Assembly: GCF_023516555.1 (NCBI RefSeq)
Contig: NZ_JAMGBD010000001.1
Coordinates: 248,001-312,000 of the forward strand
DNA: 64,000 nucleotides
Direction of reading: 5' to 3'
Origin: Sphingomonas alba
GTDB taxonomy: Bacteria; Pseudomonadota; Alphaproteobacteria; Sphingomonadales; Sphingomonadaceae
The notes below the pieces were generated by a model. That model ran no database searches, was not told the origin of the DNA, and saw only the letters and a program-made list of their open reading frames with translations. Below, one piece after another: positions 44,100 to 47,927 of this stretch. Made by a program: the position numbers and the translations under genes. The first letter of the stretch is position 1; each line of letters begins with the position of its first letter.

Positions 44100-44822
44100 T
44101 CACTCCTCGTTCTTGACGATGGTCGCCTTGCCCCGGCCCGCCAGCACATCCGTGAGATTGCCCGGCTGGCGGATATTGAAGACGACGATCGGGATGTTGT
44201 TGTCACGACAAAGGGCGACTGCCGCAGCGTCCATGATCTTCAGGTCGTCCGCGAGCACACGGTCGAAACCAATGTTTTCATAGCGCGTCGCACCGGAGAC
44301 CTTTTTGGGGTCGGCGGTGTAGACGCCGTCGACGCTCGTTCCCTTGAAGAGCGCATCGCACTTCATCTCGGCGGCCCGCAACGCGGCGCCGGTATCCGTG
44401 GTGAAATAGGGGCTACCGGTGCCTGCGGCGAAAATCACCACCCTGCCCTTCGCCAGATGGCGCTCGGCGCGGCGGCGGATAACCGGCTCGCAGACCTGAT
44501 CCATTTTGATCGCGGACTGGACGCGGGTCTCGACACCAAGCTGTTCCAGGGCATTCTGCATCGCGAGCGCGTTCATGACCGTCGCCAGCATGCCCATGTA
44601 ATCGGCCTGGGCCCGATCCATACCCTTGGCGGCGCCGGCCATGCCCCGGAAAATGTTGCCGCCACCGACGACAAGGCACACTTCGAAGCCCGCCGAGCGC
44701 GCTGCGGCGATTTCGGCGGCCAGTCCTGCCACGGTCTCGGTGTCTATGCCGAACTGGCCCTGGCCCATCAAAGCCTCACCGGAGAGCTTGAGCAGGATCC
44801 TTTTGAACTTGGGTCGGGTCAT
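44100..44822 (-). CDS. pyrH: Uridylate kinase
   Basis: Hexameric UMP kinase (240 aa) of pyrimidine metabolism. [14 protein letters not shown] lies near residue 5, [10 protein letters not shown] near residue 52, then the conserved [17 protein letters not shown] helix and the [19 protein letters not shown] region. The length is normal. Its upstream region is shared with the divergent TIR gene, so 151 bases (44823-44973) hold both promoters. In most bacteria tsf lies directly upstream; here the TIR gene intervenes. Confidence 0.97.
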
Positions 44823-44973
44823 CTCTCGGGCTTGTCCTCAAAGACAGCTTGGGGCTGCGTCTCGGGAAAGCGCTTCTATGGCCGCCCTCGCGGCTTGCCA
44901 ACCGCCTTAATGCAGCAGCCAACTTGCACATAGGCCGGTTTAGACGCACCTAGACGTGCAGACGGGGGCATGG

Positions 44974-46923
44974 ATGGCGCAAGTCTTCCTCAGCTACGAT
45001 CGCGAAGACGGCGGCAAGGCGCGAGTGATCGCCCAAGCCCTGGAACGCGCGGGCCATTTCGTCTGGTGGGACATGCACATCAAGGGCGGCGCCGAATACG
45101 GCCGCGAAATCGAGGCGGCACTCGAAAAATCGGACGCTGTGATTGTGCTGTGGTCGGAGCGCTCGATCGCTTCTGCCTGGGTCCGTGACGAGGCCGCCGC
45201 AGGACGGGATCGAGGCTGTTTGGTGCCGGTGCTGATTGAACCGGTCAGCCCGCCAATGGGATTTCGCCAATACCAAAACCTGGATTTCAGCAACTGGAAA
45301 GGGCGCGGCAAGCCACCACGCATGGCAGAGCTGCTGGACAGCATCGGGAACAGCACGCCCAAGGATACGCTGCCCAAAGAGCCTCAAAAGCCAGCAGCCC
45401 GCACAAGAACGTCCCGAGTGGAAGGCTTGTCGCCGCTTCTCAAATGGTCGCTGATGGGCGGCGCCGTCATCCTGGCGCTTCTCATCCTCGGCCCCGCCAT
45501 CGGCCTCCTCACTGGCGGCGGCAAGGACAAGCACGGCGTCTATACGGTTGCGGTCACCGCAGCCGATCCCTCTGCCGCACATCTTGCAAGAGACCTCGCC
45601 GTGAGCCTTGGTCAGTTGCAGTCGGCGACGACGGGATCATTGAGGCTCGTCAGCGGCGCCGAAGGGTCCTCTAAGGCGGACCTTTATCTCGAAGCCGGCA
45701 GCGAGGAAGGAAGCGATAAAGCCAGCGCTAGCCTTGTCATGATGAATGGCAAAGACCGTTCCATCCTCTGGTCCGAGCACTTCGATCAACCATCCGGAAA
45801 GCTTGCCGATCTGCAGCAGCAAATGTCGTTCACCGCAGCGCGAGTGCTCACCTGCGCGCTTGACGGTCTCGCCGCCCCGGAAGGCGGCCTCAAGCCGCAG
45901 ACATTCAAGCTTTATCTCACCGGCTGCGCCCAAGTTGCGGAGGTTGCCAGCGTCGATCCAACGTCAGTGATTGCGACCATGGAAAAGGTTGTCGCGGCGT
46001 CGCCGAGGTTCAAGCCTGCGTGGCAGACCTTGCTGCTGACCCAAGGGTCGATCACCGGAACGTCTTTTGATGAGGCGGAGAATAGACCGGGAATCGAGAA
46101 GCTATCCCAATTCATTCGTCAGGCGCGCAAAGTTGACCCGGACATGGCTGAAGCGACGCTGGCGGAGACCTGGCTGCTGCCCGCCTCTAACTACGGCAAA
46201 GCGATAGAGCTTGTAGAAAGGGCTTACCGGCAATCCCCGGACAATCCGGATGTTCTCAGTATGGCGGCGTATCAGTTACGTCGGGTGGGCCAAATGCGAG
46301 AGGCGGTCGACGACGCAAGATTCGCGGCCGAGCACGATCCGCTGTCTCCATTCGCTCTCAACAATTATATTTCCGCCTTGTTCTATGCTGGGCGCTTCGA
46401 CTCTGCCCGCGAAGAACTGGCCAAAGCCGAGCAGCTTTGGCCCGGGACCGATACGGTCAAGGAAGTCTCTTTCCGCTTCAACCTTCGTTACGGAGACCCA
46501 AACGAGGCCCTGAAATTCGTCCAGGCCGAGGGCATGGAGGCTGGGATGGCTCAATTCCTGCGGGCGCGAATCGACCGAAATCCAGCGGATCTGGCATTCC
46601 TCCGGAAAACGATAAACGCACGGATAAAAGACAGGGGCGCCGAAGGTCTAAGTTATTTCATTCAAACAGCTGGTGAGTTCGGCTGGGAGGATGATGTCTT
46701 CAAACTCTTGCTCGGTTGGCCAAAGGCTAGCGAGCTCGCGACAATTTCGGAAATCTACTTTCGGCCTCAGATGAAGAAATTCCGTAGCGACCCGCGTTTC
46801 ATGATCGTTGCCGAGCGTGCCGGTTTGATCACGTATTGGCAAAAGAGTGGGAAATGGCCGGACTTCTGCTCGGACCCGGATTTGCCATACGACTGCAAGA
46901 AAGAAGCCGCGAAGCTTCACTGA
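44974..46923 (+). CDS. Membrane-anchored TIR-domain protein with TPR-like C-terminus
   Basis: Three-part protein of 649 aa. TIR domain: residues 2-125, with VFLSYDRED at 4-12, VWWDMHIKGGA at 30-40, a helix with EYGREIEAALEKSDAV at 41-56, LWSERSIASAWVRDEA at 59-74 and the last strand RQYQNLDFSNW at 99-109. Membrane helix: about 157-179. The remaining 460 residues begin with a domain with TolB-like features and continue as TPR-like helices (about 330-520). This TIR-TM-TPR build occurs in sphingomonads with unknown role, so NADase activity is uncertain. It stands between tsf and pyrH but on the opposite strand. ATG 44974; a GTG at 44956 would add six residues. Confidence 0.82.
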   Translation: MAQVFLSYDREDGGKARVIAQALERAGHFVWWDMHIKGGAEYGREIEAALEKSDAVIVLWSERSIASAWVRDEAAAGRDRGCLVPVLIEPVSPPMGFRQYQNLDFSNWKGRGKPPRMAELLDSIGNSTPKDTLPKEPQKPAARTRTSRVEGLSPLLKWSLMGGAVILALLILGPAIGLLTGGGKDKHGVYTVAVTAADPSAAHLARDLAVSLGQLQSATTGSLRLVSGAEGSSKADLYLEAGSEEGSDKASASLVMMNGKDRSILWSEHFDQPSGKLADLQQQMSFTAARVLTCALDGLAAPEGGLKPQTFKLYLTGCAQVAEVASVDPTSVIATMEKVVAASPRFKPAWQTLLLTQGSITGTSFDEAENRPGIEKLSQFIRQARKVDPDMAEATLAETWLLPASNYGKAIELVERAYRQSPDNPDVLSMAAYQLRRVGQMREAVDDARFAAEHDPLSPFALNNYISALFYAGRFDSAREELAKAEQLWPGTDTVKEVSFRFNLRYGDPNEALKFVQAEGMEAGMAQFLRARIDRNPADLAFLRKTINARIKDRGAEGLSYFIQTAGEFGWEDDVFKLLLGWPKASELATISEIYFRPQMKKFRSDPRFMIVAERAGLITYWQKSGKWPDFCSDPDLPYDCKKEAAKLH

Positions 46924-46925
46924 TA

Positions 46926-46955
46926 CGAAAAGGGCGGAGCCTTCCGGCCCCGCCC
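46926..46955 (-). terminator. Intrinsic terminator of rpsB-tsf
   Basis: Read on the minus strand, after the tsf stop, a GC-rich hairpin (GGGCGG/CCGCCC plus GCC/GGC, one mismatch, TTCC loop) is followed by TTTTC. This is a classic Rho-independent terminator for tsf, and the hairpin can also end the convergent TIR transcript. Confidence 0.75.
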
Positions 46956-46982
46956 TCAACGCTTACTCGTCCGGATCGCCGT

Positions 46983-47927
46983 TCAGGCGACCGGCTCGTC
47001 CTTTTTTACGCCGGCGGCAGCCGCGACCTCCGCCGCGAAGTCGTCCTGCTTCTTCTCAATGCCCTCGCCCAGCTGGAAGCGGACGAAGCCCTTGAGGGCG
47101 ATCGGCGAACCGGCATCCTTGCCGGCGGCCGCGACGACGTCGGAGACCGGCGTCTTGTTGTCCATGACGAACAGCTGGCTGACCAGGCTGTGCTCCTTGC
47201 GGAACTTGGCCATCGAGCCTTCGACCATCTTCTCGACGATGTTGGCCGGCTTGCCGCTTTCGTTGGCCTTCTCGACGGCGATCGCCTTCTCACGCTCCAG
47301 GAGAGCGGGATCGAGGTCCTCGGCGTTGAGCGCCAGCGGGTTGGCGGCAGCGATGTGCATCGCGAGCTGCTTGCCGAGCGCCTGGAGCGCACCGGCATCG
47401 GCAGCGCTCTCGAGAGCAACCAGCACGCCGATCTTGCCGAGGCCTGGGCCCGCGGCATTGTGGACGTAGCTGACAACGACGCCTTCGCTGACTTCCAGCA
47501 AGGCAGCACGACGCAGCGACTGGTTTTCGCCGATGGTGGCGATGTTGTCGGTCAGCTTCTCCTCGACGGTACCGCCGGCAGGATAAGCCGCGCCCTTCAA
47601 CGCCTCGATGTCGCTTCCGGTATTGAGAACGATTTCAGAAACGTTCTTAACGAAGTCCTGGAACTGCTCGTTCTTGGCAACGAAATCGGTTTCCGAATTG
47701 ACTTCGACGACAGCGCCTTTGGTGCCTTCGACGGCGACGCCGACGAGGCCCTCGGCAGCAGTGCGGCCAGCCTTTTTGGCGGCAGCAGCAAGGCCCTTGG
47801 CACGCAGCCAATCGACTGACGCTTCCATCTCGCCGTTGTTCTCGGCCAGCGCCTTCTTGCAATCCATCATGCCGGCGCCAGTGCGCTCGCGCAGTTCCTT
47901 CACCGAAGCAGCGGTGATTTCAGCCAT
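46983..47927 (-). CDS. tsf: Elongation factor Ts
   Basis: Guanine nucleotide exchange factor for EF-Tu (314 aa). The N-terminal UBA-like module opens [23 protein letters not shown], followed by the conserved [20 protein letters not shown] and the core domain with [17 protein letters not shown] near residue 74. Two core subdomains and the C-terminal module are of normal length. It is cotranscribed with rpsB; its transcript should end at the 46926-46955 hairpin. The neighbouring pyrH is separated from it by the TIR gene. Confidence 0.97.

Follow-up and report, generated by a model that had tools for sequence, protein, structure and literature searches.

The 649-residue protein encoded between tsf and pyrH in the window (the whole stretch of 64,000 nucleotides of Sphingomonas alba DNA that was analysed) is, we propose with moderate confidence, a one-component transmembrane receptor that senses the periplasm and uses an NAD-processing TIR domain as its output. 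Its open reading frame was confirmed at 44974-46923 on the forward strand (ATG at 44974, TGA stop ending at 46923), just where an earlier sequence-only reading had placed it, between tsf and pyrH and antisense to both, the two flanking genes being confirmed by equivalog models. Judged by its sequence, the frame is a coding gene and not a chance one, because the frame, the domain order and the position are all preserved in orthologs from other species, whose proteins are 38-45% identical. The gene, the parts of its product and the elements around it are as follows:

44100-44822, minus strand: pyrH (UMP kinase), divergent from the TIR gene (TIGR02075, 9.1e-100)
44874..44901, minus strand: promoter-like TTGGCA-16-ATAGAA 5' of pyrH (sequence)
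44974..46923, plus strand: coding sequence of the TIR-TM-TolB-like-TPR protein (open reading frame; Pfam; same-place orthologs in other species)
44974..45354, plus strand: TIR domain, residues 1-127, predicted to be cytoplasmic by the positive-inside rule applied to the family (PF13676, 1.2e-21)
45190..45192, plus strand: codon of Glu73 in the motif S67-x-W69-V-R-D-E73-A, the alignment counterpart of the catalytic Glu in TIR NADases
45433..45516, plus strand: single membrane helix, ~residues 154-181 (hydropathy; helix in the model)
45529..45870, plus strand: putatively periplasmic TolB/FlgO-like alpha/beta domain, ~residues 186-299, with Cys294 (AlphaFold2; family consensus; CadC fold match)
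45871..46851, plus strand: helical TPR-type region, ~residues 300-626, with Cys318 (TPR_19/TPR_14; AlphaFold2)
46852..46920, plus strand: C-terminal tail WPDFCxDPxLPYDCKxEAAKL, with Cys632 and Cys641 (conserved; second cysteine pair)
46927..46957, no strand assigned: terminator-like G+C hairpin between the 3' ends of the TIR gene and tsf, which converge here
46983-47927, minus strand: tsf (EF-Ts), convergent with the TIR gene (TIGR00116, 6.5e-91)

The architecture of the protein was established by several approaches. Pfam recognized TIR_2 (PF13676) at residues 4-108 (E=1.2e-21, 77.9 bits against a cut-off of 28), and TPR_19 and TPR_14 exceeded their Pfam cut-offs near residues 404-444. The sole hydrophobic segment lies at ~residues 159-181, with its top window at 161-179 (Kyte-Doolittle 2.35). 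An AlphaFold2 model, computed from a 58-sequence alignment of the window protein with public homologs, reached a mean pLDDT of 87.8 and comprised a TIR domain at residues 1-127 (mostly above pLDDT 90), a disordered linker, a helix at 154-179, an alpha/beta domain at 190-275 and a long helical region reaching to the C terminus. PF13676, the one hydrophobic helix, the TPR families and the model thus agree on the TIR-TM-TPR layout that had been read from the letters.

The sequence-only reading had proposed checking for the catalytic glutamate of the TIR domain; many TIR domains that bear this residue are scaffolds or weak NADases. The profile of the TIR domain matched the structures of AbTir, PdTIR, SARM1 and RUN1 and aligned E73, in the alphaC region, with the W..E glutamate in the AbTIR, PdTIR and RUN1 structures, so the glutamate is indeed present; it was invariant in 58/58 members, as were S67, W69, V70, D72, A74, F97, R98 and Q99. 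A published survey describes this glutamate as critical to TIR NADases (PMC7075850). Within the close set, pairwise identity averaged 66% in the TIR domain, 24% in the linker and helix, 37% and 33% in the two parts of the sensor and 58% in the C-terminal tail (residues 601-648), showing that, at the level of protein identity, the family diversifies its sensor and holds its TIR output constant.

Following the helix, the family consensus is a TolB/FlgO-like plus TPR module that is common in proteobacterial regulators, a name that rests on its motif and, in one relative, on a weak match to FlgO. Foldseek returned the CadC periplasmic domain (3ly7/3ly8/3ly9/3lya) among the best PDB matches, at E 3.6e-5 to 3e-4; these matches were of modest score (TMq ~0.2, TMt ~0.4) and many generic TPR proteins scored comparably, and so the likeness to CadC leans on the winged-helix fusions described below. 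All complete close homologs had exactly two cysteine pairs in the sensor part, corresponding to Cys294/Cys318 and Cys632/Cys641 of the window protein. The Cys632/Cys641 pair was retained in every one of them, and Cys294 and Cys318 covaried perfectly across the alignment (both present in 12/58 members and both absent in 46/58), as is expected of a disulfide outside the cytoplasm. Lysine and arginine were heavier before the helix than after it in 47/58 members, that is, with the TIR domain inside; the window protein itself has equal charge on the two sides (2 and 2), and its topology call consequently rests on the family. Taken together, the CadC-like fold, the cysteine pairs and the charge bias suggest that the sensor resides in the periplasm.

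Scanning the open reading frames of the collected loci with a profile of the sensor gave 163 matches, 123 with a TIR domain, 8 with a winged helix and 32 with other or truncated partners. Pfam identified an OmpR-type winged helix (PF00486) in four of these proteins (L004, L008, L245 and L262, 4e-9 to 8.5e-11) and a class III cyclase (PF00211, 8.6e-13) in another, L021. L004, one of the winged-helix proteins, was 39% identical to the window protein over 492 alignment columns, from residue 164 of the latter, inside the membrane helix, to near the end, and the output domains of the two were not significantly similar. Within the sensor tree, L004 nested among TIR-bearing, mostly site-resident sensors (100/100), the cyclase protein nested among other TIR sensors (FastTree support 0.999), and a single clade of all TIR-bearing sensors was rejected (AU p=1.7e-8); therefore, TIR, DNA-binding and cyclase domains have replaced one another as the output of one kind of sensor in these receptors. 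That close relatives of the sensor carry a DNA-binding or cyclase output points to signalling across the cell envelope. A role as sensor or anchored effector, which the sequence-only reading had suggested from the helix and repeats, fits well with both the CadC-like periplasmic domain and these fusions.

Similar to regulators of the CadC/ToxR type, the window protein combines an N-terminal, putatively cytoplasmic output, a single helix and a putatively periplasmic sensor made of an alpha/beta and a helical part, at the modest TM-scores given above, and it is their winged helix that its four close sensor relatives bear. It differs from them in lacking PF00486, in having a TIR domain as output and in its longer TPR-type C-terminal part. 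Proteobacterial class III adenylate cyclase - TolB/TPR proteins such as L021 share its C-terminal TolB-like/TPR module, whereas the TIR domain stands in the window protein where they have the cyclase. With the bacterial TIR NADases AbTir and PdTIR it has in common the TIR fold and the catalytic W..E glutamate, and with the TIR-TPR proteins of a published TIR survey the joining of TIR to TPR, group 6 of that survey being mainly actinobacterial (PMC7075850). Unlike both, the window family is membrane-anchored, has a predicted extracytoplasmic sensor and is centred on Alphaproteobacteria.

The family is large and shows both expansion and loss. Genomes of the genus, 2-3 Mb in size, contained 0-18 TIR_2 genes (4 in the window genome), many of them of 600-800 aa and many matching the entire window protein, and in some genomes family genes formed tandem clusters. 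Homologs were found in Sphingomonadales, Phenylobacterium, Caulobacter, Hyphomonas, Marinicaulis and some Gammaproteobacteria. A plasmid search gave five weak partial records and no single place covering at least 80% of the protein, a phage search gave no match to the window protein, and Foldseek against viral structures gave TPR or TIR fragments only; with housekeeping genes as neighbours, the window gene thus showed neither the plasmid or phage presence nor the flanking mobile genes of mobile-element cargo. The neighbours of other family members were likewise mostly housekeeping genes (BipA, thymidylate synthase and others). One further TIR-TM-TPR paralog of the window genome (L064:5520-7340, G000:C1:613519-615339) is flanked by a peptidyl-tRNA hydrolase-like gene, which follows an L25-like gene, and by a YchF-like GTPase one or two frames on, a translation-related setting whose names were given by sequence appearance only. 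In nine Marinicaulis/Parvularculaceae loci (L105, L123, L125, L130, L131, L136, L140, L142 and L153), TIR-TPR genes lie divergently beside typA/bipA-like genes, often with an adjacent second TIR gene and a primase-like gene. Elsewhere, 32 codons standing alone (G026:C2:49540-49635), within an open frame of 90 aa, match the C-terminal tail of the window protein at 69% identity and are likely a relic of a copy that was deleted elsewhere in that genome.

The place of the gene, within an otherwise conserved gene order, had been presented as surprising, and a comparison of tsf-pyrH spacing in sphingomonads had been proposed. Such a comparison over 71 genomes of the genus, 67 of which have tsf and pyrH on one contig, gave a median gap of 115 bp and seven gaps of 1.6-2.2 kb. 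Six of the seven contained a TIR-TM-TPR gene in the same orientation (the window genome, G000, and G005, G064, G068, G072 and G073), and the seventh (G074) a metallo-beta-lactamase-fold gene. Two more genomes (G084 and G028) had the TIR gene next to pyrH at a contig edge, so that the gene occupies the junction in 8 of ~69 genomes, with a deletion scar in a ninth. That scar, in a 258-bp gap of G079, consists of the last TIR-gene codons WPDFCSD, a frameshift, DLPYDCKAEAAKI and a stop, beside a hairpin that is similar to 46927..46957 and stands 3' of tsf; the gene was therefore once present and then deleted. About 60 genomes of the genus have no TIR gene at the junction and close sister species differ, which goes against presence in all relatives as a housekeeping gene, the outcome that the sequence-only reading had set against its own proposal. 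On a species tree of rpsB+tsf+pyrH+frr the inserts were scattered, several adjoining sister species without one, with six state changes.

Beyond the genus, an insert of at least 0.8 kb was found at tsf-pyrH in 27/78 genomes of other Sphingomonadaceae genera and in 0/47 genomes of other families of the order. In twenty of the Sphingomonadaceae inserts (L285-L304) the single-gene cargos were of many unrelated kinds. Those identified included enzymes (an AHH nuclease, an indoleamine dioxygenase, an aldo-keto reductase, a methyltransferase, metallophosphatases and metallo-beta-lactamases) as well as DUF389, MFS, NosD and Abi_alpha; neither TIR nor the sensor was present in any of these 20. This variety means that the slot is permissive and its cargo replaceable. 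The position is thus incidental, a landing slot with no functional meaning of its own, and the surprise attached to it was not borne out, given these cargos and the many copies of the family across the chromosome. It had also been allowed that the gene might turn out to be a common insertion with no link to phage resistance or NADase activity, and of this the commonness stood, by the same 27/78 genomes. A unique insertion into an invariant operon is ruled out by the permissive site, and one ancestral insertion followed by simple vertical descent does not fit either: site-resident copies as a single clade were rejected (AU p=4e-5), because L004 and L086, located elsewhere, nest within them. Together with the true loss in G079, this requires relocation or replacement plus loss, gain and loss being only partly separable. 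The promoter-like element 5' of pyrH was also present in 52/58 empty gaps, and its retention indicates that pyrH has its own promoter beside the insert. In Sphingomonadaceae, tsf-pyrH is an insertion hot spot, which it is not in the other families of the order.

Some relatives of the window gene adjoin genes for SLOG-SLATT proteins. Such a gene lies near the TIR gene in eight loci from the wider set (L116, L119, L121, L146, L148, L149, L152 and L161), upstream except in L146, and encodes a SLOG-like N terminus (GVTGHR ... AVWDG ... GGTG) followed by SLATT-type helices, with PF18181 recognized in L148 (2e-10). Overall the family stands in cis with SLOG-SLATT in ~ten alpha- and gammaproteobacterial loci; in G003 the SLOG-SLATT gene directly precedes the TIR-TM-TPR gene, and in G077 a TIR-TolB-TPR gene with no predicted helix lies 10 bp before a SLOG-SLATT gene on the same strand. 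No partner gene adjoins the window copy, which is an orphan member of the family. The single SLOG-SLATT gene of the window genome (C1:1598435-1600084) is 1.3 Mb distant and apparently shares an operon with a further TIR-TM-TPR gene. The four genes of this apparent operon (L314:4307-9383, G000:C1:1598306-1603382) are those for the SLOG-SLATT membrane protein and for a 711-aa TIR-TM-TPR protein, which belongs to a different TIR subfamily, and two small frames; similar TIR / ~150-aa protein / SLOG-SLATT loci occur in several genomes of the genus, and the operon is a candidate conflict system.

DprA and TRPM channels carry SLOG-type domains, and they led the comparison of a SLOG-SLATT model with the PDB, with weak E-values and nothing below 0.001; the SLOG-SLATT relatives tested had no PADLOC match. 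SLOG-SLATT was detected in 51/71 genomes of the genus and in 0/10 genomes without any TIR_2, by a single-sequence query that may miss divergent genes. The contrast between SLOG-SLATT and TIR_2 count, drawn at a TIR count of at least two, was 45/51 versus 5/20, and phylogenetically independent pairs stood at 9:0 (median p 0.004), in a test that was chosen after the data were seen and with TIR counts that include the cis partners of SLOG-SLATT. The pairing has precedent, since SLATT has been predicted to be a membrane effector regulated by ADPr derivatives and TIR beside SLATT has been reported in some phages (PMC9503650). We regard the linkage as a lead towards a Thoeris-like arrangement. In ~19 alpha- and gammaproteobacterial loci (among them L099, L101, L102, L103, L116, L119, L122, L145, L147, L148, L157, L158 and L161), a gene for a trypsin-like serine protease lies 3' of the TIR-TPR gene, mostly convergently; those tested matched PF00089 at 5e-36 to 1e-48, the N terminus was often signal-peptide-like or long, and the L116 protease is fused to WD40-like repeats. 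The window copy has no such neighbour.

With Thoeris itself the window protein shares the TIR output, and its relatives adjoin genes for SLOG-bearing effectors. It departs from Thoeris in having neither ThsA nor SIR2 and in carrying its sensor within the same chain. Furthermore, the SLOG domain comes fused to SLATT helices, and no gene for it adjoins the window gene, whose neighbours are tsf and pyrH and not a SLOG-containing ThsA effector. Nor is its TIR domain of the ThsB type (PF08937 at 18.7 bits, below the cut-off of 21.2; PADLOC ThsB at E=0.01 over 70 residues only). Against PADLOC-DB the window protein gave no full-length defence model, only partial TIR matches (best 1.4e-8, residues 2-74). 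An association with defence islands was also considered and rejected, as few PADLOC matches were obtained for 96 neighbour genes and most of these were generic, such as helicases and DnaG primase, with two genes matching RT_UG29 and two DnaG-like.

In the mechanism that we favor, the receptor would sit in the inner membrane, where its CadC-type periplasmic sensor, a TolB-like alpha/beta domain and TPR-type helices held by two disulfides, would detect an envelope or extracellular cue. The signal would cross through the single helix to the cytoplasmic TIR domain, which would assemble and cleave NAD+ via Glu73, yielding ADP-ribose-type products or loss of NAD+. The outcome could be reversible signalling, or defence through NAD+ depletion or a messenger. 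The sensor module is itself a general building block, coupled in evolution to TIR, winged-helix (DNA-binding) or class III cyclase outputs. A possible alternative, to which we give appreciable though minor weight, is an anti-phage abortive-infection receptor: the periplasmic TPR part would sense phage adsorption or DNA entry, and the TIR domain would deplete NAD+ or make a messenger that opens a SLOG-SLATT pore and kills the infected cell, as a membrane-sensing Thoeris-like system. The NADase glutamate, the patchy presence and loss of a family that varies so widely in copy number, its tandem clusters, its fast-diverging sensor and both the cis linkage and the co-variation with SLOG-SLATT, a predicted effector of the fitting kind, all speak for such a role. 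The partnerless window gene, the mostly housekeeping surroundings of the gene and its relatives, which are not defence islands, the absence of any PADLOC family and the near absence from plasmids and complete absence from phages speak against it, and the existence of winged-helix and cyclase forms of this sensor favors ordinary signalling.

TIR domains commonly serve as modules of assembly, and paralogs of one genome, of which there are several with similar TIR domains, could form hetero-oligomers, so that the domain might instead be a non-catalytic scaffold or regulator that signals through TIR-TIR contacts with other TIR proteins of the cell and not through NAD+ chemistry; we think this unlikely, given that the glutamate and the SxWVxDEA motif are invariant over 58 diverse members, beyond what a scaffold would be expected to need. 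Still less credible is a housekeeping role linked to translation or to the pyrimidine and envelope genes at tsf-pyrH. It would suit the finding that eight species of the genus have the gene at one place and in one orientation, but the many genomes of the genus without the gene, the differing close sisters, the deletion scar, the unrelated cargos at the site in other Sphingomonadaceae and the paralogs elsewhere in the genome make it highly improbable. Returning to the receptor reading, a wider version of it, which we hold as rather doubtful, is that Sphingomonadales and related proteobacteria run a distributed, Toll-like surveillance of the envelope, in which many diverged TIR-TM-TPR receptors, the window protein among them, would monitor the periplasm and produce an NAD-derived messenger acting on SLOG-SLATT pores, encoded by one or a few genes elsewhere in the genome; some lineages would add an exported trypsin-like protease at the sensing side.

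The TIR enzyme and the sensor module are each known, and their combination is undescribed as far as the literature searched shows: TIR with TPR (PMC7075850) and TIR with SLATT (PMC9503650) were found there and a CadC-like membrane TIR family was not, which is weak support for novelty, most subscription journals lying outside the coverage. As in animal Toll-like receptors, by functional analogy only, a repeat sensor would lie outside, a single helix in the membrane and a TIR domain inside, whereas the domain order of the window protein is reversed, its repeats are TPR and not LRR and its sensor shares no homology with theirs. Most bacterial TIR proteins examined to date are soluble and work downstream of triggers in the cytoplasm. 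A large family whose TIR domain is coupled directly to a sensor outside the cytoplasm would mean that bacteria arrived independently at the overall plan of the animal Toll receptor. The natural swaps of TIR, winged helix and cyclase on one sensor are ready-made tools, and as the winged-helix relative reports by transcription, the ligand of the TIR receptor can be sought with a chimera. If the SLOG-SLATT linkage holds, the family would constitute a membrane-sensing branch of Thoeris-like NAD signalling.
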